From the NCBI RefSeq assembly GCF_964340395.1, contig NC_135551.1, forward strand, positions 24,328,003 through 24,392,002: a stretch of DNA of 64,000 nt, written 5' to 3'. Origin of the DNA: Glandiceps talaboti. Lineage: Eukaryota > Hemichordata > Enteropneusta > Spengelidae. The number at the start of each line of letters is the position of its first letter. Position 1 is the stretch's first letter. The position numbers were made by a program, and so were the translations under genes. A model generated the notes under the pieces. The model made no database searches. It had not been told where the DNA came from and was given only the letters and a program-made list of their open reading frames with translations. Below are positions 401-57,000 of the stretch, piece by piece.

Positions 401-3400
401 GAACAACGTTTGAAAGAGGCCAACCAACAACAAGTTCCAAGTCCACAGAGTTCACCCCAAACACAGCCAGCAGTGATCACAGCTCCACCTGCCACCAATC
501 AAAACCTATTTTCCACAGCACCAGCTACCCCTCCACAACAGCCAGCACTGCAGGCTACACAGCAATCAGATCTCTTTGCCACATCACCACCTCCAGGTAG
601 GGCTAGGGTCGATTTCATGCCACGAGAGGTCGCTACACTGTACAGTGGCCATTTTGAAAATAGCTAGTCATGATTTACCTTCGACACTCTGTTAACATGC
701 CAACTGATGTTGTTTATAGAGTGAACAGTAGTCAGGTGTTTTTGGAAACCATTGAGTTGAGTTTTGTTGAGGCCATTTGTAACAAGTCCCTTTTTATGAA
801 GGAAAGTTGAACTATCTCATTTAGATCAGTGAAAAGTGAATTATTGAGTAGGTTTGGGCAGGATAGGAAAAGTGAATTATTGAGTGGGTTTGGGCAGGAT
901 GGGAAAAGTGAATTATTGAGTAGGTCTGGGCAGGATGGGAAAAGTGAATTATTGAGTGGGTTTGGGCAGGATGGGAAAAGTGAATTATTGAGTGGGTCTG
1001 GGCAGGATGGGAAAAGTGAATTATTGAGTGGGTCTGAGCAGGATGGGAAAAGTGAATTATTGAGTAGGTTTGGGCAGGATAGGAAGAGTGAATTATTGAG
1101 TAGGTCTGAGCAGGATGAGAAAAGTGAATTATTGAGTGGGTTTGGGCAGGATAGGAGAAGTGAATTATTGAGTGGGTTTGGGCAGGATGGGAAAAGTGAA
1201 TTATTGAGTGGGTTTGGGCAGGATGGGAAAAGTGAATTATTGAGTGGGTCTGAGCAGGATGGGAAAAGTGAATTATTGAGTGGGTCTGAGCAGGATGAGA
1301 AAAGTGAATTATTGAGTAGGTTTGGGCAGGATAGGAAAAGTGAATTATTGAGTGGGTTTGGGCAGGATAGGAAAAGTGAATTATTGAGTGGGTTTGGGCA
1401 GGATAGGAGAAGTGAATTATTGAGTGGGTTTGGGCAGGATAGGAAAAGTGAATTATTGAGTGGGTTTGGGCAGGATAGGAAAAGTGAATTATTGAGTGGG
1501 TTTGGGCAGGATAGGAAAAGTGAATTATTGAGTGGGTCTGGGCAGGATAAGAAGAGTGAATTATTGAGTGGGTTTGGGCAGGATAGGAGAAGTGAATTAT
1601 TGAGTGGGTTTGGGCAGGATAGGAAAAGTGAATTATTGAGTGGGTTTGGGCAGGATAGGAGAAGTGAATTATTGAGTGGGTTTGGGCAGGATAGGAAAAG
1701 TGAATTATTGAGTGGGTTTGGGCAGGATAGGAAAAGTGAATTATTGAGTGGGTTTGGGCAGGATAGGAAAAGTGAATTATTGAGTGGGTCTGGGCAGGAT
1801 AAGAAGAGTGAATTATTGAGTGGGTTTGGGCAGGATAGGAGAAGTGAATTATTGAGTGGGTTTGGGCAGGATAGGAAAAGTGAATTATTGAGTGGGTCTG
1901 GGCAGGATAGGAAGAGTGAATTATTGAGTGGGTTTGGGCAGGATAGGAGAAGTGAATTATTGAGTGGGTTTGGGCAGGATAGGAAAAGTGAATTATTGAG
2001 TGGGTTTGGGCAGGATAGGAGAAGTGAATTATTGAGTGGGTTTGGGCAGGATAGGAAAAGTGAATTATTGAGTGGGTTTGGGCAGGATAGGAAAAGTGAA
2101 TTATTGAGTGGGTCTGAGCAGGATGGGAAAAGTGAATTATTGTGTGGGTCTGAGCAGGATGAGAAAAGTGAATTATTGAGTAGGTCTGGGCAGGATAGGA
2201 AAAGTGAATTATTGAGTGGGTTTGGGCAGGATAGGAGAAGTGAATTATTGAGTAGGTTTGGGCAGGATGGGAAAAGTGAATTATTGAGTGGGTTTGGGCA
2301 GGATAGGAAAAGTGAATTATTGAGTGGGTCTGAGCAGGATGAGAAAAGTGAATTATTGAGTAGGTCTGGGCAGGATAGGAAAAGTGAATTATTGAGTGGG
2401 TTTGGGCAGGATAGGAGAAGTGAATTATTGAGTAGGTTTGGGCAGGATAGGAGAAGTGAATTATTGTGTGGGTCTGGGCAGGATAGGAGAAGTGAATTAT
2501 TGAGTGGGTCTGAGCAGGATGGGAAAAGTGAATTATTGAGTAGGTCTGAGCAGGATGAGAAAAGTGAATTATTGAGTGGGTCTGGGCAGGATAGGAAGAG
2601 TGAATTATTGAGTGGGTCTGAGCAGGATGAGAAAAGTGAATTATTGAGTGGGTCTGAGCAGGATGAGAAAAGTGAATTATTGAGTAGGTCTGAGCAGGAT
2701 GAGAAAAGTGAATTATTGAGTGGGTCTGGGCAGGATGAGAAAAGTGAATTATTGAGTAGGTTTGGGCAGGATGAGAAAAGTGAATTATTGAGTAGGTTTG
2801 GGCAGGATAGGAAAAGTGAATTATTGAGTAGGTTTGGGCAGGATAGGAGAAGTGAATTATTGAGTGGGTCTGAGCAGGATGAGAAAAGTGAATTATTGTG
2901 TGGGTCTGAGCAGGATGAGAAAAGTGAATTATTGAGTAGGTCTGGGCAGGATAGGAAAAGTGAATTATTGAGTGGGTTTGGGCAGGATGGGAGAAGTGAA
3001 TTATTGAGTGGGTCTGGGCAGGATAGGAAGAGTGAATTATTGAGTGGGTTTGGGCAGGATGGGAAAAGTGAATTATTGAGTGGGTCTGAGCAGGATAGGA
3101 AAAGTGAATTATTGTGTGGGTCTGAGCAGGATAGGAAAAGTGAATTATTGTGTGGGTCTGAGCAGGATGAGAAAAGTGAATTATTGAGTAGGTCTGAGCA
3201 GGATGAGAAAAGTGAATTATTGAGTAGGTCTGAGCAGGATGAGAAAAGTGAATTATTGAGTGGGTTTGGGCAGGATAGGAAGAGTGAATTATTGAGTGGG
3301 TCTGAGCAGGATGAGAAAAGTGAATTATTGAGTAGGTCTGAGCAGGATGAGAAAAGTGAATTATTGAGTGGGTCTGGGCAGGATAGGAAGAGTGAATTAT

Positions 3401-6400
3401 TGAGTGGGTTTGGGCAGGATAGGAGAAGTGAATTATTGAGTGGGTTTGGGCAGGATAGGAAAAGTGAATTATTGAGTGGGTTTGGGCAGGATAGGAAGAG
3501 TGAATTATTGAGTGGGTTTGGGCAGGATAGGAAAAGTGAATTATTGAGTGGGTTTGGGCAGGATAGGAAAAGTGAATTATTGAGTGGGTTTGGGCAGGAT
3601 AGGAGAAGTGAATTATTGAGTGGGTCTGAGCAGGATGGGAAAAGTGAATTATTGAGTGGGTCTGAGCAGGATGGGAAAAGTGAATTATTGAGTGGGTCTG
3701 AGCAGGATGGGAAAAGTGAATTATTGAGTGGGTCTGAGCAGGATGGGAAAAGTGAATTATTGAGTGGGTTTGGGCAGGATAGGAAGAGTGAATTATTGAG
3801 TGGGTTTGGGCAGGATAGGAGAAGTGAATTATTGAGTGGGTTTGGGCAGGATAGGAAAAGTGAATTATTGAGTGGGTCTGGGCAGGATAAGAAGAGTGAA
3901 TTATTGAGTGGGTTTGGGCAGGATAGGAGAAGTGAATTATTGAGTGGGTTTGGGCAGGATAGGAAAAGTGAATTATTGAGTGGGTCTGGGCAGGATAGGA
4001 AGAGTGAATTATTGAGTGGGTTTGGGCAGGATAGGAGAAGTGAATTATTGAGTGGGTTTGGGCAGGATAGGAAAAGTGAATTATTGAGTGGGTCTGGGCA
4101 GGATAGGAAGAGTGAATTATTGAGTGGGTTTGGGCAGGATAGGAGAAGTGAATTATTGAGTGGGTTTGGGCAGGATAGGAAAAGTGAATTATTGAGTGGG
4201 TCTGGGCAGGATAGGAAGAGTGAATTATTGAGTGGGTTTGGGCAGGATAGGAGAAGTGAATTATTGAGTGGGTTTGGGCAGGATAGGAAAAGTGAATTAT
4301 TGAGTGGGTTTGGGCAGGATAGGAAGAGTGAATTATTGAGTGGGTTTGGGCAGGATAGGAAAAGTGAATTATTGAGTGGGTTTGGGCAGGATAGGAAAAG
4401 TGAATTATTGAGTGGGTTTGGGCAGGATAGGAGAAGTGAATTATTGAGTGGGTCTGAGCAGGATGGGAAAAGTGAATTATTGAGTGGGTCTGAGCAGGAT
4501 GGGAAAAGTGAATTATTGAGTGGGTTTGGGCAGGATGAGAAAAGTGAATTATTGAGTGGGTTTGGGCAGGATAGGAAGAGTGAATTATTGAGTGGGTTTG
4601 GGCAGGATAGGAAAAGTGAATTATTGAGTGGGTCTGGGCAGGATAGGAAGAGTGAATTATTGAGTGGGTTTGGGCAGGATAGGAGAAGTGAATTATTGAG
4701 TGGGTTTGGGCAGGATAGGAAAAGTGAATTATTGAGTGGGTCTGGGCAGGATAGGAAGAGTGAATTATTGAGTGGGTTTGGGCAGGATAGGAGAAGTGGG
4801 TTTGGGCAGGATAGGAAAAGTGAAGTATTGAGTGGGTTTGGGCAGGATAGGAAGAGTGAATTATTGAGTGGGTCTGAGCAGGATGGGAAAAGTGAATTAT
4901 TGAGTGGGTCTGAGCAGGATGGGAAAAGTGAATTATTGAGTGGGTTTGGGCAGGATGAGAAAAGTGAATTATTGAGTGGGTCTGAGCAGGATGGGAAAAG
5001 TGAATTATTGAGTGGGTTTGGGCAGGATGAGAAAAGTGAATTATTGAGTGGGTTTGGGCAGGATAGGAAGAGTGAATTATTGAGTGGGTTTGGGCAGGAT
5101 AGGAGAAGTGAATTATTGAGTGGGTTTGGGCAGGATAGGAAAAGTGAATTATTGAGTGGGTTTGGGCAGGATAGGAAAAGTGAATTATTTAGTGGGTCTG
5201 GGAAGGATGGGAGAAGTCTCAGGTTGAAGTGTTATATAAGTGTCATATTTCTGTTATCTCTAGTTCCAACCCAGTCCATTAAACTATCAGATGATCTCAT
5301 GGCATTAACAAGTAATAACCCATTCGCACCAAACATACAGGCAGCAATGCAGCAACAAGCCATGCCTACAACAGCACCAAACGTCTGGGGTGCCCCAAAT
5401 GGTAAGTATTACTTTGCAACAGTGTTGTCATATTTTATCTAATGTCCAATTTGAGTGTAGGATAATGAACATTGTTATGTTTGTTGAGGTGCTTCACTAA
5501 TAATTTGTCTTATTCCAGTACAAAGTGAAACTCAATAAGTAATACATCAATATATTCTGTATCTACTTTTACATTTGTACTCAACAGTTTTAGCTGGATA
5601 CAAATATCCCAGAACAATAACATTATTATGGGTAAATTTGAGTCAATTTAGTCCTGATACAACCCTGCTAAGTGTGGATCTACCACTTAAAAACTTCTCA
5701 AAAAAGCCTTTGACATGTGAAATTAACCTTAGATTCAAGCCATTTTAGTACTCCTTCACTAATGAGCGTGGATCTGACACTGACAGAGAAATACAACTGA
5801 CACTTTGTTTTGTTCATCTTATGATTTCCCCTTCCTGCTGCTCAGAGTTTACCGGTGTCCAAACCAGCTCCACATCTCTACCAGCAGCTGTGTCATTATT
5901 TGACACCGACACTGAAGCCACGTCTGTCTTTTCACCACCACCCACTACTGATGGTACTAACTTTACACTCTTTGGTGTCAATACATATCGTCTATACATC
6001 TCTGTCAAACCTCCCTCCAACCCCCTTATTGTAGTGATTCAGTATTATCTGTTGTCTGTAAGAATTACTCCCATGTTGTTTCTCTATCACATTTTCTTTA
6101 CCAAGGTAATATCAGTTTAACATCCCTACCCTTGTACTCACATTTGAGGTACTCATTATGGTGTGGTATTGAATACTAGTATTTTTTGTTACTGTGTCTT
6201 TGTCATTTTCCCCATGTGTTGTCTGAATTGGTTTACTAATGGTCTGGACTTACATAGCAGTAGCAAATAGTGAACTTGCTATGATACTTATTAAGTTGTC
6301 ATTCTTGTGAGATATTCTGTAATCAGGTCACCACCTGCCCCAAATCACCCCCCATACCTATATAGTTAAGTCCATTCCCATTTTTGTAAGTGGAATGGAT

Positions 6401-9400
6401 ATCACCACCAACAGAAGTATAGGGAGGACAGCATGCCTTGCAGCACAACTGTAACTGTAACTACTGCAGGATTTGGTGGCAACACCTTTTTGTGATGATT
6501 TTGGAAAATTGAACAGTCTATGTGGAGGTGTAAAATATACTCAGGACAATTAGTTGAAAAGTTGTAAAGAGTACTGGGCAACTGAATATCAAACAGACCG
6601 AATCATGTCAGTGACTTAGTTGTTGAAAAATAGCATTTCATTTTATAACGTAGGTGTCACATTGGATGGTCTGTATATACTAATATATGTAAACTGTCCT
6701 TTGTCTCTTTGCTATGCCAAGTTTTGGATCCATTAGCACCAACTGCTTTGGCTGCAACAGCTTTGCCTGGCAGCACAACTGCAACTGTAACTGCTGCTGG
6801 AGGTGGTGGCAACACCTTTGGTGATGATTTTGGAAAATCGGAGACTGCAGCTGCATCAAGTATTGCATCACTGCTCAGAATAATTTGCATGTTTTATATA
6901 TAAAGCTAGTGCATCAATGGCTGTAGGAGTTTGGCAATGTAGTAAATTGTTGTGAATAATACTATACCCCACCTGTACCACTTCTAATATCAAGTATTTT
7001 GTCCACATTCCCTGAATGAATTCCACATGTAGATCACCATGTTGGACTTTTATGTACAATGTGACTGTGTTGAGGTATAAAATGTTACTATTTGTGTTGA
7101 GGTGTAACATGTTCTTAGTACTCTTGTTTGCTATGAATGGTGTACAAGAAACAACATCACTTGGTGTTGACTTGTCAACACTGTAACTACCATCTCATTC
7201 ATGCATGTCTAAAGTTCACAGTTTATGTCGTGGTGTACCAACAGTGCAGTTGTGAATCAGATTATGTACATTCAAGTGTGTAATCGTGTAGACAGAGGAA
7301 AAGTACATGTCTCCCACTTCATTTTAATACATGTCATCCCGTAGAAGTAGTGTGCAAACGTTGTAGATAACACAGTCCCTAAAATTAGTATTATCGTGGA
7401 AGTTAGTTGTTCTGTCGTGAGAAGTTGAGAACTAATATGAAGAATCCCTGATTTCCAAAACAGTAGCCAATCACAGATGTATAGATAATTGATAATTGTG
7501 TACTAACGCTTAGACCGTAAATGTAACAGTAGTCTAACAACATAGGTCGTTTAGGTTTGTGTAGTAACATAAAATACTTGTGAGTAGATTGCATGTAGCT
7601 AATGAAATTTCTTTACAGAACAATATAAGTACACAAGAAAGAAACAAAGGTTGTATCCAGTATGGTTTACATAATAGTATAGATGATTGTTTGTTGATAT
7701 TAACTGTTATCATGCCTTAAAATACCATTTCTTGCCTGAAATATCTACTTTAGGTTTCTTATGAAGGGTTATTTCATTGAAGAGTGCATTTGTAGTTTGT
7801 TATGCACTAAATTACTATCAGGGCTGGAAATTGGCAGTAGTCCAGGGAATATAGACTTACTACTAAACAGCCTACCAAATTTATAAGGTGCATGTGAGTC
7901 TGGTAGACCAATGGAAATCAGTGGAAAATTGTAACTGAAACAATTCACTTGGCTAAATATAACCACCAAGTGTAGAAATTAAATTTAAATCTGAAGTCTA
8001 TACAGCAGGTATTTTATGAGATGACATTCATAAAAAAAGATGTAATGTTGGGAAATTGTGATAAGATTTGCAATATGTAGTGTAATGTAGTAAAGTGTGA
8101 GTAGCATTGATATAAATGTGGTCTGTCTATAGTTTACCATGTTTGTGCAACAATTTGACTGTTGATTAATGCAGTATATTCCATTTCGAACTTTATCTGC
8201 TTGCTGCATGGATAGGCTTCGGCATCATTGCAAGCCCTAATTTAGGTGCTGCAGCACCAATGATTGCAATGCCTCAAGCTACAGCACCAATTGCTGCATT
8301 GCCTCAAGCTGCAGCACCAATGGTTGCACCAATGGCTGCAATGCCTCAAGCTGCAGCAGCTGCACCACCACCACCACCACCACCACCAATATTCAATCTG
8401 TTGGATGACAATGCTACAGCACCCAGTGTATTTGATACTGAAGATAAGGGCATAGAGCTGCAGACAGTCTTTGCACCACCACTGTCACCATCTACTGCAG
8501 CTAAATTTCCCAAGCCCACAGAAGACACACCAAGTATATCAAATCTTGTATTTAGAAGTTCCCTAATGGTTTATGTCCATTTGCAGTGATGCTTTGAAAC
8601 ATTCTTTCCCTAGAGTAGATATTCATTGTTTTGTTCTTTCCCTTTCTCCGGAGTGAATATCAAAATCTTTTATGTAGATGTTTCCTGGTGTGTATCTATG
8701 TCCGTTTGCAGTGATGCTTTGAAATATTCTTTCCGTAGACAATAGAAAACCTTCATTCTTTTGATTTTCCCTTTCTACTGAGTGAAGTTCCACTACTTCA
8801 TCCATGCAGTCCACAATGTTGACTCCGTTTCGTGAAGTGAAGTGCTTCTTGCAGTAGTTTTATGAGTGTGTTACTAGATTTAGAATATGTTCCCACTGTT
8901 ATCATCAATTACTTTTTACAAAGTGATTGTTATTACCTTTTCCTATATAACAAGCAACAGACACCTCTCCATAAGTTGATGTTCAATGATTGATGTTTGA
9001 TGTCAACTCCTAGCTTTATGACTTCCCTTAGATTGTCCATAATATTTGCAACATTCATTCATTCCTCAATGCTACGGATTTGCCTGCCATACTTTCAGTA
9101 GCATTTCTACAGTTTGTGCCTCACATTGACTGCAATCTTCCTTTATTTGTATCCCTTCTACATAACAAGTGCAACACAACATACACAGCTCCACATGTTG
9201 AAATTACTTGGATTTCAACCTCCACTTCATCTACCCATCCTGTCCAGGGCACATACACATGTCCATATATTGAAATTCCTTAGCTTTCAATCTCAACTTC
9301 AGCTACTCCATTATGTACACATCCGTATACACACATTCACACATTGAATTGTGGTCCTGTTCAGTATATCAATGTATGTTCTCACCAATACACTGTATAT

Positions 9401-15400: not shown

Positions 15401-18400
15401 CACCACCACTAGTAAGGTATATAGTATATGCTGGCTGAAAGTATACATGTACATGGTTGTTGGTATGGATGATTAGAGTTGTCTGTGAGGTCTTGATAAT
15501 GGCAAGCCCCAACAATGGTAAAATATATACATATAGTACATGTATATGTTGAATGTAAGTATGGATGGTTGTTGGTGTGGATGAGCAGAATTGTATGATT
15601 GAAGGCAGGTCTTATGAATGGTAAGATACACAGTACTGTAAATTATTATGGTTGGATAGGGTGAGGAGAGTTGATAGATCTGTGTTGTGTTCGTGGATTG
15701 AGTACAGGCAGTCATAGATATGCTATCTTGGGAGTTCACTTTTCACAAAACTATTGTCAGTTATAGTTGTTTGTTGACACATCACAAAGTGTGTTCAACC
15801 AGAGTAGTGAGATTTGTTGTTGGATTTCAATGTTAGTGTCTAATGTAAAGAGAGTTGGCTTGTACATGATAATTGATCTTGTTAACAAGGTTGGTGTTTT
15901 CAGTTTTATGTGTGCAGTGTAATGGATAAGGTAGCTGGAGAATTGTTGGTGGTAATGTTCTTGGCAACTTTTTTTTGGCTAGAGACCTGATTTTTGAGTA
16001 TTAAAAAACAACTTGTTCTGAATATTTTGAAAATTGTTACGATTGTACATTTTATTGTAGACTTTGTTGATCGACTTTTGTGGGATATGTTATTTGTAAC
16101 AATAAGGTAACAACATGACGTGGTGTCTGTCAGTTATTCATTTATATGTCTTCACAGGTCATTATTCTGATATACAATTGAAATCCCCAAACCTGAAACA
16201 AAAGGTTGTCTGGCTCAACAAAAATCTTACTAATACTGCTACATTTTATCGTCTGGCTCAACAAAAATCTTACCAACAGTGCTACATTTTATCGTCTGGC
16301 ACAACACAACAAAAATCTTACCAACAGTGCTACATTTTATCGTCTGGCACAACACAACAAAAATCTTACCAACAGTGCTACATTTTATCGTCTGGCACAA
16401 CACAACAAAAATCTTACCAACAGTACTACATTTTATCGTCTGGCACAACACAACAAAAATCTTACCAACAGTGCTACATTTTATCGTCTGGCACAACACA
16501 ACAAAAATCTTACCAACACTGCTACATTTTATCATCTGGCACAACACAACAAAAATCTTACCAACACTGCTACATTTTATCGTCTGGTTCAACTAAAATC
16601 TTACCAACACTGCTACATTTTATCGTCTGGTTAAACAAAAATCTTACTAATACTGCTACATTTTATCGTCTGGTTAAACAAAAATCTTAAGAACAGTGCT
16701 ACATTTATCATCTGGCTAAACAGAAATCTTGCCAACAGAATGTATTTTGAGCAAGATGACAAAATGTTGCTGTTTTAGTAAGATTTTTTTGAGCCAGACA
16801 ATAAAATGTAGCAGTTTTTAGTTAGACTTTGTAAAGCCATATGACATTTGATTTCTGGTTTTATGATCTTAATTGTATACACACACAGTAAGCTAACTTA
16901 TCTATTACTCTTGTAGGACCCAGAATACTCTTCATCCTATGTGAGTTGTATGCATGAATTTCAGACTTCTCTTATTTTTCACCCACTACTGTCAAGTGTT
17001 TTGTTGGGTTTTTTTCAGTCGCTAGAATGACTAACACAGGAAACACCTCTAAAATCAAAGACCTGAAACTGATCATATAGCTGTAGCCAAAAACCAGGCA
17101 TGTTAGTTTCAAATAAAGGAAAAGAAATAACAAACAAATACCACATTCCATTGCGTTTCATTCACAGTTGCTACCAAATCATGCTGATTCACCTGTTGTA
17201 AATCTCACATAGGTTGTGTGAAGCCCTTGGAATAGTATTACCAGATGTGTGGTAATAGTGCAGGATCATCCTCCAGCTATCAGTATTTCTATGTGCTTCA
17301 CACATGTACAGTCACACTATACAGTGAGAACCACTGTAGGTGTACTGAAAGTATTATAGTGTACATTCTGTATATTCATATCGTGAAAGGACTTTTGTAC
17401 AAATGTTGTCATTCTTAGAGGTGTTTCCTACTTTACGGTTATGCTTGATTTTCTCATACTTGTACTTTTTTTGCAAGAATGGCTATGTCAGCTCATTTTG
17501 AGGGTTTCTTCGTCTTTTGTGTGAGTTTCAAGTTTCATCTTACCGGTAATGTTTGGGGTTTGGTCTTTTCCGTACAATTATGTGCAGTGTCTTGCCTTTT
17601 TCTTTGGTTTAGTGCTAGGTATGCCATCTTCACAAGTCTGATGTAACACAATTTTCTGTCAGATTGAAAGATTCATGGAGCTTCCATATCTTGATGTCAC
17701 TTTCAGCACGACAACATGATATGGAGTGCCCACAATGAGTCATCAGTCTAAAATATCTCTGTGTATTCTTCCCAGTTTGTCATGTCTCATTTTGTGCCAA
17801 GTACATATTTGTTAAAGTTAGAAGTTAAGTTCCTGATTCAGGGTCAACCCAGTTATTTTACGATGTACTTTGGACTCTCAGTAGTTTGTGTAGAGGGTGG
17901 TTGGTTGTTGTTAAGGTAGTTGCTTCGTGGTTACTGGTATAATAATGTTGATAAGTGTACGTTGCAAAGGCATGGTGGTGGTTCATGTACATGGAGTTGC
18001 TTGGTTTTGGAATGTTGTAAGGTGCGTGGTCAGTTTGGATGGAGTACGGAAGGTTGCTTACATCCAAAACTTTAAAATTGGTGGTGGGAGCAAATGGCTG
18101 CCTGATTGAAGTGATGATCACATTGTGTGTGGCTTAGATACCCTGTATGGTGTGCAGTCAAGTTGGGATGTGGATTGTTGCTTGCATAAGATTTTTTTTT
18201 ATAGTTTTAGGGGAGTTGAATGGCTGCCTGGGTGAGGCGGGATGTTATTGCTTGGTTGGTGTCTAGTTTTGGGGAGAGTAGTCAGAATGTGGGTTTAGGG
18301 ATGGATGGTTGCTTGCTTTAGATATTTATAAGAGGTGTATGGCTGTCCTGGTTAAATGGTTATGTTAGAATTGGGGTTTGGGAATTGATGGTCACTTGTA

Positions 18401-21400
18401 TTAAAACTTTATGGTTGTAGGGGTGAATGGCTGCCTTAGTGATTTCGTGTATTTATTGCTGCATGTATTATATCTGCAAATACTGTGCAACTTGCTCGGA
18501 GGAATGCTTAAAAGTTTGTTTTATGTGTGCTTGTCTATTTAATAAGAGCTTGATCAATTGATTGCTACATACAAATTCCCCATCGTTGTATTTAAGTGAG
18601 TACTTAGGTACTTCCATACCATCTAGTATTACCCCCACTGGTCCCTCAGTTCACAAATTTGTCTTGCTATAAGTTAAAATTTTCAATGATACTCTGCGAG
18701 GATTATTACACCAGTGTAGAGCTAATGGTAGGGGTGATGTACCTTTGATCTCACTACCCCTAGCTTTACACTGAACTATGTGGTATGATGCAAGCCTTGT
18801 AAGTCTAGATTCGTACCAGCAGCAGAGTCATGTATTTATACATCTGTGATGTTCTATACTAGAGTACCGTTACAAGAAGAGTTCATGAAAAGGAACTGTA
18901 AATCCACCCTTATATTTAATACACCGTGGGGAATTTGTAAATTTGCATGTCGATCAGTTGCATCAATACCTGCTTTTAGAGCAAATATTACTGCATCTTA
19001 GTATGTAGCTTGATATCCAGAATGATTGATTAAGAAAGTACTCTGCAGAGCAAAATGTATTCATGATATGAAATGATGAAAGCGTAATATGCTGCAGATA
19101 TGAATGACAAGTATATGGTCATAATTCAACAATGTCCATTGTACCATACTCTACAATTACAATACAGTGTCTTTTACATTCTTTATCATTATCTCTGAAA
19201 AAACACACTTCATAACATTATACTGTCACCAACCTTTTACCCCTATGTCACGTGTGTTCTTTGTGTGTTCTTTCTCTGTATGTTACTCCTTGAATAACTT
19301 GAAATCATAGCTGAGCACATAGTAAGCATATTGCAGGACATCACAGCCAAAGGCCAAAATAAAATTAAACACAATGCCCAATCGTAATTGCTTACTACTA
19401 CTACTACCACCAGACTTTTACATGTTGGTTGTCATCTCAGTGAAGTATGTGATGCTTTGATCTCCAGGCTTCAAAAATTACAAAATATTATTATATAATA
19501 TGAACAGAGAAAAATTTTACAAAATAAATGATGGTGTACGTTTTTTCTGCACTTCACAACTTTTCTTATGCTTTTTGTTGTTCATTTCTGTTCCATTCAA
19601 TGCAGATTTGGAACTTTGGAAAAAACAGTTGTACGATACTTGAGTGAAATCCAAAATAGTTGTAGTAAATTAATCTTCTGTCTTCTAAGGAGGTACATTT
19701 GTATTATTTGTACACTAGTAAATACTAGTTGGGCAAACAATGATTAAATAGCAAATGTAGGAGTCAAGAAATTTGTATGAAAATATGTTACATGTAATGA
19801 GAAAGAGTAAGATATGTGTGTTATAAGTTCACAAGACTCTTACTGTAGCAGACTATTGTAAAATGCTACATGCTGTCCAGTAATTTTGTTACATCGAATA
19901 TTTAACTGTAGCAGACTATTGTAAAATGCTACATGCTGTCCAGTAATTTTGTTACATCGAATATTTAACTTTAGCAGACTATTGTAAAATGCTACATGCT
20001 GTCCAGTAATTTTGTTACATCGAATATTTAAAGATATTTATAAAGATAACAAATCTTTGAGTGGTCTTAGACTAATACCTTTGTATCGCATGTACACACA
20101 GTAGCTTTGAATTGGTGGGAAACCTTACAAAATGCCTGAGAAACTCCGATATATTTCATTCACCATCCTTCACAAAAACACTACCATCATGTACAAGTCT
20201 GGCTGTAGTATGTATGCCTAGTCCTTTAATACCACAAGCAATTAGTGGGTATCCCTTTCTTACCCATCCTCTGGGCGTAGTGTGTTAAGGTACTTACTGA
20301 CTTGCCACAGAATAAAAGTTGCTGTACACTGACACGAGGCTGTGTGTTTTCTGTGCTTATCCATGTTTTGCCCTTCATTCTTTAAAGGAGTCCAGTAACC
20401 AGCAGAAACCCAAGTCGGTGAGTTTTCATCCCTCTCAAAATGCATTGTAGGTTTTAGATCCCATTATGAATGTCTTTGTGGAACCCAAAAGATGCAATAT
20501 ATGTAATATCCCCCTCGTACTCTAGATGTGAACACATGAACCCATAGTAGTGTATATCTGTGAAACCCAGAGTTTTGTATATACCCTGTGAACCCATCCT
20601 AAGAAACAAGAAGTTTTCATATACTCTGTGAGGCCAGAAATTGTGTACACCCAGTGAATCCCAAAATAATTGTTTATACCCTATGAACCCAGAAGTAACT
20701 ACACATTGTATGCCCAGTGAACCCAGAAATTATGTATACCCATTGAACCTAGAAATTGTGTATACCCATTCAACCTATAAGTAGCTGTGTACATTGTATG
20801 CCCAGTGAACCCAGTAATTGTGTATGCCCATTAAACCCAGAAATCATGTATAACCATTGAACCCATAAATTGTGTATATTATATACCCATTGAACCCAGA
20901 AATTGTCATCTATCCTAAGATAGTTCAGTGTTAGGCCCATTGGATCAAAAAGCTGCCATGCTGTAGCAGGGCTAACACAGTGAACCTATAAATGACTGGT
21001 TGTACCCAGTGAACCCATTAATTGTGTATGCCCAGTGAACCCAGAAATAGCTGTCAATATTTTGTGAACCCAGGAAGTAGTTGTGTATACCCACAGTGGG
21101 ACCAGAAATCGAAACAACATACCCTGATTGAATGAAATGGGCAAAATCATTGCAAGAATTTATGTCCACAGACTCCATGTTGTTTGTATGAATTAAAAAA
21201 TCTGTACAAGTACTGTCTGTAGACATGTGCAATGATTATCAGTATTGCTTATATTTGCATATTCATGAGGACTGCGTTGGTTGCACCATCATCATACAAG
21301 TTGATTTTAGAGAACTGAGTTGAAACCTAAATTTCTATTGGGTTTCACATGCCATATCTTAGTCTGTCAAGCATTTACAGCCAATCAAAAAACCTAAAAC

Positions 21401-51083: not shown

Positions 51084-54000
51084 GGGGACATTGTTAGTAT
51101 GTTGTGGGAGGAGTGTAATGCAGATGTGTAGGGATAAGTGTGGGGGAATGTATGTAGATACAGTATGGAGATGAAGTAATGAAGAGGCTTGTATGATAGA
51201 TACAAATTAGGAGTGTAAATTGGTGTGCAAGGGTGGGTTGGGGGGTTAATGTATGTTATAAATGTATCTGGGAATGGAGAACTGAAAGGGTATTTGTGTT
51301 GGGTGGTGAATGGATGATACAGCAGGCTAACTGTGTTCTGTGTGAGGGGGAGGAAGGGTTGGAGAAGGGGATGTTTCATTGATTTGTTTTATAGATGCCC
51401 ATTTTCCAATCACACCAATCACAAAATACAATATGTTGATATATAGAGCACATTTTCATGAGACATACCTTCTATCATCACTCTGTGGAGCTGGTTCCCA
51501 GTGATCATAGTTGGTTTCAACTAAAAACCACCTGTCAATAGAAATAAATATATAAAAAAAATTGTGTCATCGCACCACTTTAGACAGAATGTCCTGTCCA
51601 GAAAACAATTCTATCTTTTTGGCCTAATAGACTACAGGTTATTTTGGCCTAATAGACTACAGGTTATTTTGGCCTAATAGACTACAGGTTATTTTGGCCT
51701 AATAGACTACAGGTTATTTTGCCCTAATAGACTACAGGTTATTTTGGCCTAATAGACTACAGGTTATTTTGCCCTAATAGACTACAGGTTATTTTGCCCT
51801 AATAGACTACAGGTTATTTTGCCCTAATAGACTACAGGTTATTTTGCCCTAATAGACTACAGGTTATTTTGCCCTAATAGACTACAGGTTATTTTGCCCT
51901 AATAGACTACAGGTTATTTTGCCCTAATAGACTATAGGTTCATTACTTTAAAGGCTTATATTGGATAATGATTGAAATTTAGGTGAGAAACACTTGTCTG
52001 GCAGAGATATAGAACAAGTTGGCCTAGGATAATCCTACCTAATCCTCATGGCTTATAGGACTAATACAAGGGAATATGGGATTGAATCATTGGCCTTTAA
52101 ACAAAAATGATGCATACATACCATTGGTAGTATTAAACAAGCATGCCACATTTGGTTGAAATTGGCTCAAGAATTTCATGGCTATATATATCATTATTTC
52201 AATAAAAATATTGATTTTTCTAGGTTTCACTTTTCATGAATAAAACATGATTTTTAAATCATAAGTTTCTGTTTCTGTTATTATACCTCTCATTACTGGA
52301 GTCCAGTTTCCAAACATCTTTAGATGCGAGTCTGTCTCTGGTGATGACAGCGCCCTCTCCAGGCTTCATTCCTCCTATGATGTAATACACTGGTGCTATA
52401 ATTTGTTCTGTGCTCAACATGTGAACAGCTTCATCAAAGTTATTCATATTTGCAATTGCCTGCATAATATTTGACAAACACAAAAAATTAAGAAACACAA
52501 AAGAACTGAGAACATGCATCAAATTTGTAAACTGGTATAAACTTACTTTGTAATACCTTTTTTTTTTAATTATCATTTTTTTTTTTAGAAATATTAAAAC
52601 CTACACTAGTTGTAATTGTATTAGTTTTTCAATCAGACAGTCAAAAATATATTTACTGAAATTTGTTAAGTACCAATAATTAGATATTGTACATGTTAAT
52701 TAAAAGCTTGACTTTATCCATACATAGTACATTGAAACTGTGATTGTATCATGGTGCTGATTTTTGCACATGGACCCCAAAATCGCTTTGATTGGAAATA
52801 TTGTACCATACTATGTGTACAGCTATACAAATATGTTTACCCACAGGTGGTTCAATATTGTGCAGTGTGAACGATATTGTGATTAATTCATTATATATGT
52901 GACATGACATCAAAATATCTCCCAATTGTAAGCTAGTATAGCTGTAAGAGTCACATGCTAATAATTCAAAAAATAACATTTTACTAATAGCATATTCTTA
53001 TCAATATTTTGGAGCTCAGATATTATACTACAAGTCAATAAGTTTTGTTTTTTAGTGAATTTCAAGTTGTCTTTTTTTTTTTTTTTTTTTTGCAAATTAA
53101 GTTTGTGCCATACTATTGTCTACAAACGTTCAGGACATATTGTACTTTTAATAGTAATCAATAGTGAACGTCAAGTTTTTGGTTTTGGTTTTGATTTCTA
53201 TGCAAATCAAGTTCGTGCTTTTTTTTTTTTTTCTTTTTTTTCTTTTCTCAGTATTGTAAAGCGCATTGAGGCTGTTGCGTAATGCGCTGATAAGAATTTA
53301 TTATTATTATTATTATTATTACAACAATCAAAAGAATTCACTAGTATTTCCCCTCTCCCCATAAAAAAGAAAACACAATTATAATCAACAATAAACACCA
53401 CAGTGGCGATATAACTTACATCCCTGATAAGGAAACTAACAAATGATGCTTGACCAGTTAGTAATGCATTTATCAATTCCAGCATATTTTCCCACTGCTT
53501 CCCTTGATCTGTAATCAAAAACAAAAACATTTTCAAACATCAAAATGTTCTTCCAGTAGTAATTTTGTTGTCAAATTGTTACAGATATAACAGCTCCATA
53601 ATTTGGTGTTTTCTAGTTATTTTGACCAGCAATAAAAACTCTCCCTTATTAGCGGGCACACTTAATGAGTTTGACAGCATGAATATCAGGTTATTTGTGA
53701 TAAGATACTGATTGATAAGGTTTCCTCTCACCTCTCTCGTCAGCGGATATTGAAAATGCTTTTGGTCTCATACCAGTCATTGCACCAATGTAACCAATAA
53801 ATGTTGTTGCTGTATACACCGTCTAGAATAGGGGAAGCAAGTGAATCAATTTCACATTAGCAGTACTTATAATTTATGACTCCTAAGTGCTTATTACCTT
53901 CAGTGAAAACTTCAATAATATTTATTGTTGCATTTGTACCGACTCTCAATAGGCAATGTAGCCCACAGCAAAGACACCCTGTAAAGGAACTGGTATTTCT

Positions 54001-57000
54001 CTGAAAGTGTGCACATGTAACTTGTCGGTGATGTATAAAAATCACAAAATGACTACACAACACAGTTATGAAAATGCTTCTATTTACTCTTTATGATAAG
54101 TTAGACATGATAAACTAAAACTATTGTTGTTCAATGTGGTAGATTACACAAGTGGTTGACAGTGGGTGGTAGCTTCACCTTGGTTATAGGGATATATCTC
54201 TACCATCAAGATAGTGTAAACATCAAAATGTAAACTTTAGATAATAGAAGTTTATAAAAAAAATAAGCCCTGGAGAAAAACTGGCTACCTGAAATTCTGC
54301 CTTTAATAGTGTGAGTGTAATTACATCATCCTGTAATAGCTTAAAAGTGACCACATGGATGAGGGTGTGGATTTTTAATTCATAAAACTATTTTATCATG
54401 GCTTCCCACTTGAAAAATCAATGTGAAACTATATAGACCAAGTGTGTGTTTGTAACTCAATACAGTACATAAAGCTAAAAAAAACATGTACAAAGTTTGT
54501 TATTGTATGTACAATAACAAACATTTTATACATATATTAACCTTATGTAATTTATTGAGTTACAAACATGGACTTGGTCATTGTTGTTTCACATTGATTT
54601 TTTCAAGTGGGAAGCTATGATGAAATTGTTTTATAAATTAAAAATCAAAAATAAATACCAAATCTTCATATGGCCACTTTCATACTAGGACACCAACATG
54701 TTATTATTAATGTGTATCTTTACATTGCTTTAAACTGTCTTTCAGCAGCTGTAATACTTTGCATAGTAAAACTTACTGTTCCATTCCGCTGTGCATCATA
54801 TATGAAGGTCATATCACGTAACATTTCGGTAAACGTATAATCCAAATTACGTCCATGCCATATTTGACCTTCACTATCCTCTGCCACAATACTTGTACAA
54901 TATCTGAAAAAAAAATGAAACCAAGTTTTTTCAAGTATTGGTACTGCAAAATTTAAATATTTTGTCATTGATATATATTCAATTATTTCATGGTGGAAAG
55001 ACATATGTACTGGTCATTAACATGTCTTTTGTAACCACATCATACAGTAAACTGACAAGAACATGCATAAATTATAGAAATTTAAACAGGGGGTGTCTAT
55101 TTAGTACGCTGTCATATCATACAGTAAACTAACAAGAACATGCATAAATTATAGAAATTTAAACAGGGGGTGTCTATTTAGTACGCTGTCATATCATACA
55201 GTAAACTGACAAGAACATGCATAAGTTATAGAAATTTAAACGGGGTGTCTATTTAGTACGCTGTCATATCATACAGTAAACTGACAAGAACATGCATAAA
55301 TTATAGAAATTTAAACAGGGGGTGTCTATTTAGTATGCTGTATTATCATACAGTACACTGACAAGAACATGCATAAATTATAGAAATTTAAACGGGGTGT
55401 CTATTTAGTACGCTGTCATATCATACAGTAAACTGACAAGAACATGCATAAGTTATAGAAATTTAAACGGGGTGTCTATTTAGTACGCTGTCATATCATA
55501 CAGTAAACTGACAAGAACATGCATAAATTATAGAAATTTAAACAGGGGGTGTCTATTTAGTATGCTGTATTATCATACAGTACACTGACAAGAACATGCA
55601 TAAATTATAGAAATTTAAACGGGGTGTCTATTTAGTACGCTGTCATATCATACAGTAAACTGACAAGAACATGCATAAATTATAGAAATTTAAACAGGGG
55701 GTGTCTATTTAGTATGCTGTATTATCATACAGTACACTGACAAGAACATGCATAAATTATAGAAATTTAAACAGGGGGTGTCTATTTAGTATGCTGTATT
55801 ATCATACAGTAAACTGACAAGAACATGCATAAATTATAGAAATTTAAACGGGGTGTCTATTTAGTATGCTGTCATATCATACAGTAAACTGACAAGAACA
55901 TGCATAAATTATAGAAATTTAAACAGGGGGTGTCTATTTAGTACGCTGTCATATCATACAGTAAACTGACAAGAACATGCATAAATTATAGAAATTTAAA
56001 CAGGGGGTGTCTATTTAGTACGCTGTCATATCATACAGTACACTGACAAGAACATGCATAAATTATAGAAATTTAAACAGGGGGTGTCTATTTAGTACGC
56101 TGTATTATCATACAGTACACTGACAAGAACATGCACAAATTATAGAAATTTAAACAGGGGGTGTCTATTTAGTATGCTGTATTATCATACAGTAAATTAA
56201 TCTTCTTTCTACCAGGGAGGTATTTGTTTGTACACAACAAACGATGCGTTGGGAAAAACAGGATTAATGGGATCGATAATATGAAATATAGAAACAGGGG
56301 GTGTCTACTTACACACAGACATCATAGAATAAATTGACAGGAACAACAACAACATAACATATATAATTTATAAACAGGGGTGTGTACTTATGCAGCGATA
56401 TAATATGTACATTGACAGGAACGATCACATGAAATTAAGAAACAGGGGGTGCCTTCTCATTATGTTGTGATATCATAGAGTAAGTTGACCAGAACAATAA
56501 CAAGATATAAAAACAGGGGGTGTCTACTTAGGCAGTGATAACATAGAGTAAATTGACCAGAACAATAACAAGATATAGAAACAGGGGGTGTCTACTTACG
56601 CAGTGATAACATAGAGTAAATTGACCAGAACAATAACAAGATATAGAAACAGGGGGTGTCTACTTACGCAGTGATATCATAGAGTAAATTGACCAGAACA
56701 ATAACAAGATATAGAAACAGGGGGTGTCTACTTACGCAGTGATATCATAGAGTAAATTGACCAGAACAATAACAAGATATAGAAACAGGGGGTGTCTACT
56801 TACGCAGTGATATCATAGAGTAAATTGACCAGAACAATAACAAGATATAGAAACAGGGGGTGTCTACTTACGCAGTGATATCATAGAGTAAATTGACAAG
56901 GACTATATCACCAAGACTCATATTAAAAGCTTTAGCCATTCCCATCAGTTCACCACTGTATGGACTCGGAATATATTTATCAATATTCCCTCCAATCATT

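Follow-up and report, generated by a model that had tools for sequence, protein, structure and literature searches.

We describe a minisatellite of 36-bp units at positions 832-5211 of a 64,000-nt stretch of Glandiceps talaboti DNA (NC_135551.1, positions 24,328,003-24,392,002, forward strand; hereafter the window), located between two coding exons (401-596 and 5264-5401) of a plus-strand gene that looks like a clathrin adaptor of the AP180/PICALM type. The array, which we take to be intronic, is very probably a strand-asymmetric minisatellite with a match to the Jeffreys core, kept uniform by turnover of its repeats and removed from the adaptor message by splicing rather than translated, and it is probably a variable number tandem repeat (VNTR). 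A long open reading frame runs through the array from end to end, but the data do not support reading that frame as a sign of a protein. All positions are those of the window, which represents one allele and was analysed from sequence alone.

Tandem Repeats Finder (TRF) places the array at 831-5217, with a period of 36, 122.2 copies, 93% matches and 0% indels. Segmentation resolves it into 121 full units plus a shorter one of 24 bp (at 4792), which has lost 12 bp and keeps the frame; the array ends in a degenerate tail, and the last full unit is itself degenerate. The units stand head to tail, are nearly identical and fall within the length range of about 10-100 bp by which minisatellites are recognised. 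There are 32 distinct full units, the commonest of which, AAAAGTGAATTATTGAGTGGGTTTGGGCAGGATAGG (KSELLSGFGQDR), makes up 24 of the 121. The sense strand consists of 39% G and 4% C, which amounts to a GC skew of 0.82 with the G-rich strand as the sense strand, and the largest skew of any 1-kb segment starting beyond 5300 is 0.41. The first eight bases of the Jeffreys core (as listed in an excerpt of PMC2408603), GGGCAGGA, are present in 90 of the 121 full units, and the ten-base core GGGCAGGANG is present in 14 of 120 units examined; the probability per shuffled unit is 0.0007 and 0.0002, respectively, both values being uncorrected for a motif that was picked after the fact.

No DNA relative of the unit was found elsewhere in the window, the best blastn-short matches being exact 11-mers with an E value of 2.5, and an origin of the unit from an exon of the same gene was rejected on this ground. 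A tblastn search of the window with three of the 12-mers at E up to 100 listed no match. When all six frames beyond the array were scanned with a loose motif, 11 scattered matches appeared, including ELLGFG at 17994, none of them in a recognised exon. There were no matches to Rfam at the gathering score, no tRNAs in a search run with the bacterial code, and no Pfam families at E up to 0.01 in 10 other stretches of the window. The unit pattern had 0 and 0 occurrences in viral and bacterial/archaeal contig collections, which says little given the content of those collections.

The original prediction had described about 122 stop-free units of 36 bp with a frame that continues through the acceptor into the exon at 5264, and this is borne out by TRF, by the segmentation and by the open frame at 811-5442. 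The frame is a mechanical stop-free stretch of 1,543 codons on the plus strand (811-5442), which enters the exon in that exon's own frame, ends at the stop at 5440-5442 and is not taken here as a gene; its tryptic peptides would be of the type SELLSGFGQDR, SELLSGSEQDGK and similar. Two further statements held in part. The remaining forward frames, said to be closed in every unit, do both carry stops in 831-5217 (269 and 115), but the lower count falls short of the number of units because, for example, five units read TTGTGT and lose that TGA. Likewise, the array was said to contain no ATG, which holds within the frame, where the first ATG does not come before 5299, but not otherwise, as 43 ATGs lie on the plus strand in 832-5217, all of them out of frame. 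Two open minus-strand frames had gone unmentioned, one of 1,499 codons (732-5231) and the other of 1,455 codons (821-5188). Each is open over nearly the whole array, and both serve here as controls.

To put this openness in numbers, 20,000 units were shuffled with the composition of the real unit and 20,000 with an AT-rich composition; for a period that is a multiple of three, 70% and 82% of them, respectively, had one or more forward frames open. The consensus unit has one forward and two reverse frames open, and three open frames out of six was the commonest outcome of the shuffles (40%). As 36 is a multiple of three and these frames are already open in the consensus unit, copies of that unit would stay open without selection, and the data favour the caveat attached to the original prediction, i.e., that the frame is open simply through homogenisation. 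More generally, when the period of a minisatellite is a multiple of three, the array is fairly likely to be free of stops, frequently on both strands, and a very long open frame in such an array is therefore weak evidence of coding.

For comparison, nine arrays were picked by hand from the TRF list, among which those with only two or three copies are weak controls. Five of the nine have a period divisible by three; the 36-, 63- and 24-bp arrays have at least one frame without a stop throughout, and the 48- and 42-bp arrays have one stop each in their best frame. In the four arrays with a period not divisible by three, the best frame contains 8, 24, 6 and 1 stops. The 48-bp minisatellite (TRF, 16216-16716, about 11 copies) lies in stop-free stretches of the three forward frames that are 194, 145 and 120 codons long.

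Eleven positions in the unit are variable, with two states each, and in the plus frame these variants amount to 10 non-synonymous changes, one synonymous change and no stop. When the same seven transitions and four transversions are drawn at random, the neutral expectation is 7.5 non-synonymous changes, 3.0 synonymous changes and 0.47 stops, with a probability of 0.61 for no stop and 0.11 for one or fewer synonymous changes. The comparison of synonymous and non-synonymous variants among units that had been proposed as a check on coding thus reveals no shortage of non-synonymous changes and an absence of stops that is within chance. The synonymous bias and avoidance of stops that would mark a coding repeat were not observed, at only 11 sites and with correspondingly low power. 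The pattern runs opposite to purifying selection, although weak selection may be present given how few the sites are. The twelfth residue of the repeat can be R, G, E or K and the ninth G or E; therefore, charge is not kept.

The order of the units shows block turnover. Unit identity at a lag of three units is 0.20 versus 0.08 expected (z = 5), and a block of nine units is present twice, at 3352 and 4180, the longest recurrence in 200 shuffles being five units; runs of identical units are at most three long. Arrays of this kind are known to arise by slippage, unequal exchange or conversion. The favoured history would begin with a unit of 36 bp that is rich in G and poor in C on the sense strand and has a match to the Jeffreys core; this unit would have been amplified by block duplication (through unequal exchange, slippage or conversion) and then homogenised, its copies remaining stop-free without selection. 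The array would then leave the transcript with intron 597-5263, and exon 401-596 would be joined directly to exon 5264-5401. As an observation in its own right, unit diversity peaks in the second quarter of the array (20 distinct among 31 full units; the other quarters have 13 of 30, 13 of 31 and 10 of 29) and not at its ends, where we would have expected edge decay.

Any in-frame acceptor used from exon 401-596, which is 196 nt long and ends after codon position 1, must place the first exonic base at codon position 2. The region 811-5263 contains 560 AGs, 361 of which give position 3, 196 position 1 and three position 2, the first exonic bases of these last being 830, 4826 and the real 5264. 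Splice sites were scored with an approximate metazoan matrix, by which exon 401-596 has an acceptor of 11.4 and a donor of 10.6, and exon 5264-5401 an acceptor of 4.27 and a donor of 9.6. The in-phase AG inside the array (4826) scores -13. The AG at 828-829 is the only potential in-phase alternative to the real acceptor whose use would include the entire array, and it is weak at 0.92, a score that is equalled or exceeded by 24.5% of the AGs in 5451-64000 on both strands and by 13.3 AGs per kb per strand there. When joined to exon 401-596, 553 of the 554 AGs in 832-5217 meet a stop within 35 codons (median 4). Given this result, the variant spectrum and the open frames of the other strand, we find no support for the suggestion that the array lengthens the adaptor by a 12-residue repeat. 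Retention of the intron after exon 401-596 leads to a stop at 665.

As a protein, the plus frame matches the Pfam family MgtE_N with 264 bits over its whole length. The family cut-off is 25.9 bits; twelve units exceed it with 36.7 bits, eight perfect units fall short of it with 22.9 bits, and four units give no match at E up to 1. When 12-mers were scrambled (six scrambles of eight copies each), four of the six gave a match to one family or another at E up to 0.01, and two passed a cut-off, with up to 62.7 bits; the true 12-mer also passes the cut-off of Entericidin (27 bits versus 23.3). An MgtE_N solenoid was rejected, the match being driven by copy number. AlphaFold2, run on 12 units without an alignment, gave models with a predicted local distance difference test score (pLDDT) of 44.7 to 54.0, the best with a predicted template modelling score (pTM) of 0.15. 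The minus-strand control from the same DNA reached a best pLDDT of 62.5 and a pTM of 0.54, with five models from 25.9 to 62.5. In these predictions the plus frame has no confident fold, and the gap to the minus-strand control is not firm. A search of solved structures with 72 aa of the repeat at E up to 1 gave no match.

Several observations weigh against a purely intronic array. The array has the frame of exon 5264, and the stretch between the two (5212-5263) is also open in the plus frame; we roughly estimate that chance alone would produce such a coincidence in a few per cent of intronic minisatellites (1/3 for a period divisible by three, 0.70 for an open forward frame, about 1/3 for agreement with the exon frame and about 0.44 for 17 open codons between array and exon). 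There are no frameshifting indels among the 122 units, the 12-bp loss being the sole indel, which may itself be chance given so few mutation events. Against the view that the MgtE_N match is meaningless, that family matched none of the six scrambled repeats, and the two minus-strand frames matched no Pfam family above any cut-off. In Daphnia pulex, according to an excerpt of PMC3152781, classes of repeats longer than 10 bp whose period is a multiple of three reach a higher density in coding sequence than in introns. The five best array AGs score 4.5 to 5.5 on the matrix used, above the real acceptor at 5264; they lead to a stop, and their use from exon 401-596 would therefore give a truncated or decayed message and not a repeat protein. 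Cryptic splicing into the array may occur, but not in-frame use of these five AGs from that exon. Finally, the edge AG at 828-829 ends 2 bp before the first unit and is in phase with exon 401-596, for which we estimate an about even chance because two AGs lie in 811-831. If position 596 were spliced to this AG, a 4,572-nt exon (830-5401) would insert 1,478 codons, most of them from the 12-residue repeat, into the disordered adaptor tail. The phase fits, no stop interrupts the 1,589 codons of the joined frame, and the ELL of the unit is superficially like the clathrin-binding D(L/I)(L/F) of AP180 (motif as given in an excerpt of PMC5004861), but the unit has E at the D of that motif, the site scores below both flanking real acceptors, AGs as good or better are frequent in the rest of the window, the variants lack a purifying pattern and the predicted fold falls below the best minus-strand control; we consider such an exon very unlikely. 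There is a correspondingly slim chance that a minority transcript through 829/830 encodes a giant adaptor isoform, with about 122 ELL-bearing 12-residue repeats and a length that depends on the VNTR allele. Use of the edge acceptor would bring an intronic minisatellite into a protein in one splice-site step, and the isoform would represent a minisatellite caught on its way to becoming coding.

Translation from a transcript of the array's own, whether as a free repeat protein from another promoter or through an upstream exon of another phase, we regard as extremely improbable. The frame is open from 811 and, as described, MgtE_N matches it and not the minus-strand or scrambled frames; against this, no in-frame ATG precedes the exon, the variant spectrum is not that of a coding repeat, and the match grows with copy number, meaningless matches above a cut-off being easy to obtain for perfect repeats. 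We think it unlikely, too, that the array alters splicing or expression through its length or its G-rich strand, e.g., by R-loops, by proteins binding GGG runs or by donor-like GTs. Beyond the skew itself, the sense strand has 219 GGG runs, 84 two-tetrad G-quadruplex (G4) patterns and eight R-loop initiation-zone patterns, with none of each on the other strand, but three-tetrad G4 patterns are absent with loops of 1-7 or 1-12 (14 appear with loops of up to 25), and a G4-aware fold was unchanged in all three stretches folded. Donor-like GTGGGT or GTGAAT occurs at least 197 times, mostly scoring 3.6-3.7 versus 10.6 for the real donor, with one at 6.5; donor scores of 3.5-3.9 or better recur at 6.6-7.8 per kb elsewhere in the window. 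There are precedents in a cryptic donor within the VNTR of ABCA7 intron 18 (PMC5954066, in excerpt) and in CACNA1C, whose long alleles are associated with reduced expression in both fibroblasts and testis (PMC13131567, in excerpt).

The favoured explanation, an intronic minisatellite that is spliced out, places the array beside known systems. It resembles Jeffreys-type minisatellites in its strand asymmetry, in its 36-bp unit and in a match to the core on the G-rich strand, and its interspersed unit variants resemble the minisatellite variant repeat (MVR) maps of that type. It differs from the type in that the full ten-base core occurs in far fewer units than do its first eight bases. The 30-bp VNTR in an intron of CACNA1C (TRACT) is likewise large and intronic, with many variant units and a period that is a multiple of three; it spans 3-30+ kb and comes with population and expression data, in contrast to the single 4.4-kb allele here, and the excerpted text has its authors seeing no overt instability today (PMC13131567). 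The 25-bp VNTR of ABCA7 intron 18 is, from what the excerpt of PMC5954066 describes, also an intronic minisatellite in a protein-coding gene, in which cryptic sites in the unit offer a route to altered transcripts. That array starts with the exon's own donor; in the present intron, 235 bp separate the donor (597) from the array, whose period is 36.

The window starts inside the host gene. Exon 401-596 encodes a Q/P/T-rich, AP180/PICALM-like tail, as judged from its translation and splice scores, and the next coding exon, 5264-5401, contains an NPF motif and stays in frame when joined to it directly. The short motifs DLF (569), NPF (5317) and DFEKAFG (11337) look like those of an AP180/PICALM-type tail, and stretches reading EQRLKE and DFExxFG resemble human PICALM. 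The gene name rests on these short motifs and on this similarity to human PICALM, and the exons for the ANTH domain would lie upstream of the window. Pfam gave no match for 401-595 or 5266-5400, and no PDB match was found for 401-595 at E up to 10. With regard to the C-terminal LDSSLA[S/N]LVGNLGI site (PMC5004861, in excerpt), LDSSLA or its listed variants were not found in the six frames of the window, and one LVGNL at 20112 is in an unrelated context; an intron may interrupt the site, or it may have diverged or lie beyond the window.

Two further observations concern the remainder of the window. Positions 6428-6509 hold a near-copy, about 82 bp long, of 6757-6838, which is part of a presumed exon from 6722 (VTAAGGGGNTFGDDFGK) just downstream. 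The exon frame is broken in the near-copy by indels and substitutions, and the near-copy thus has the look of a partial duplication of the exon that has since decayed. TRF also reports minisatellites at 51617-51940 (25 bp), 55039-56196 (77 bp) and 56372-56897 (68 bp); the consensus units of the 68-bp and 77-bp arrays have AAACAGGGGGTGTCTA in common, and these neighbouring arrays may be related.

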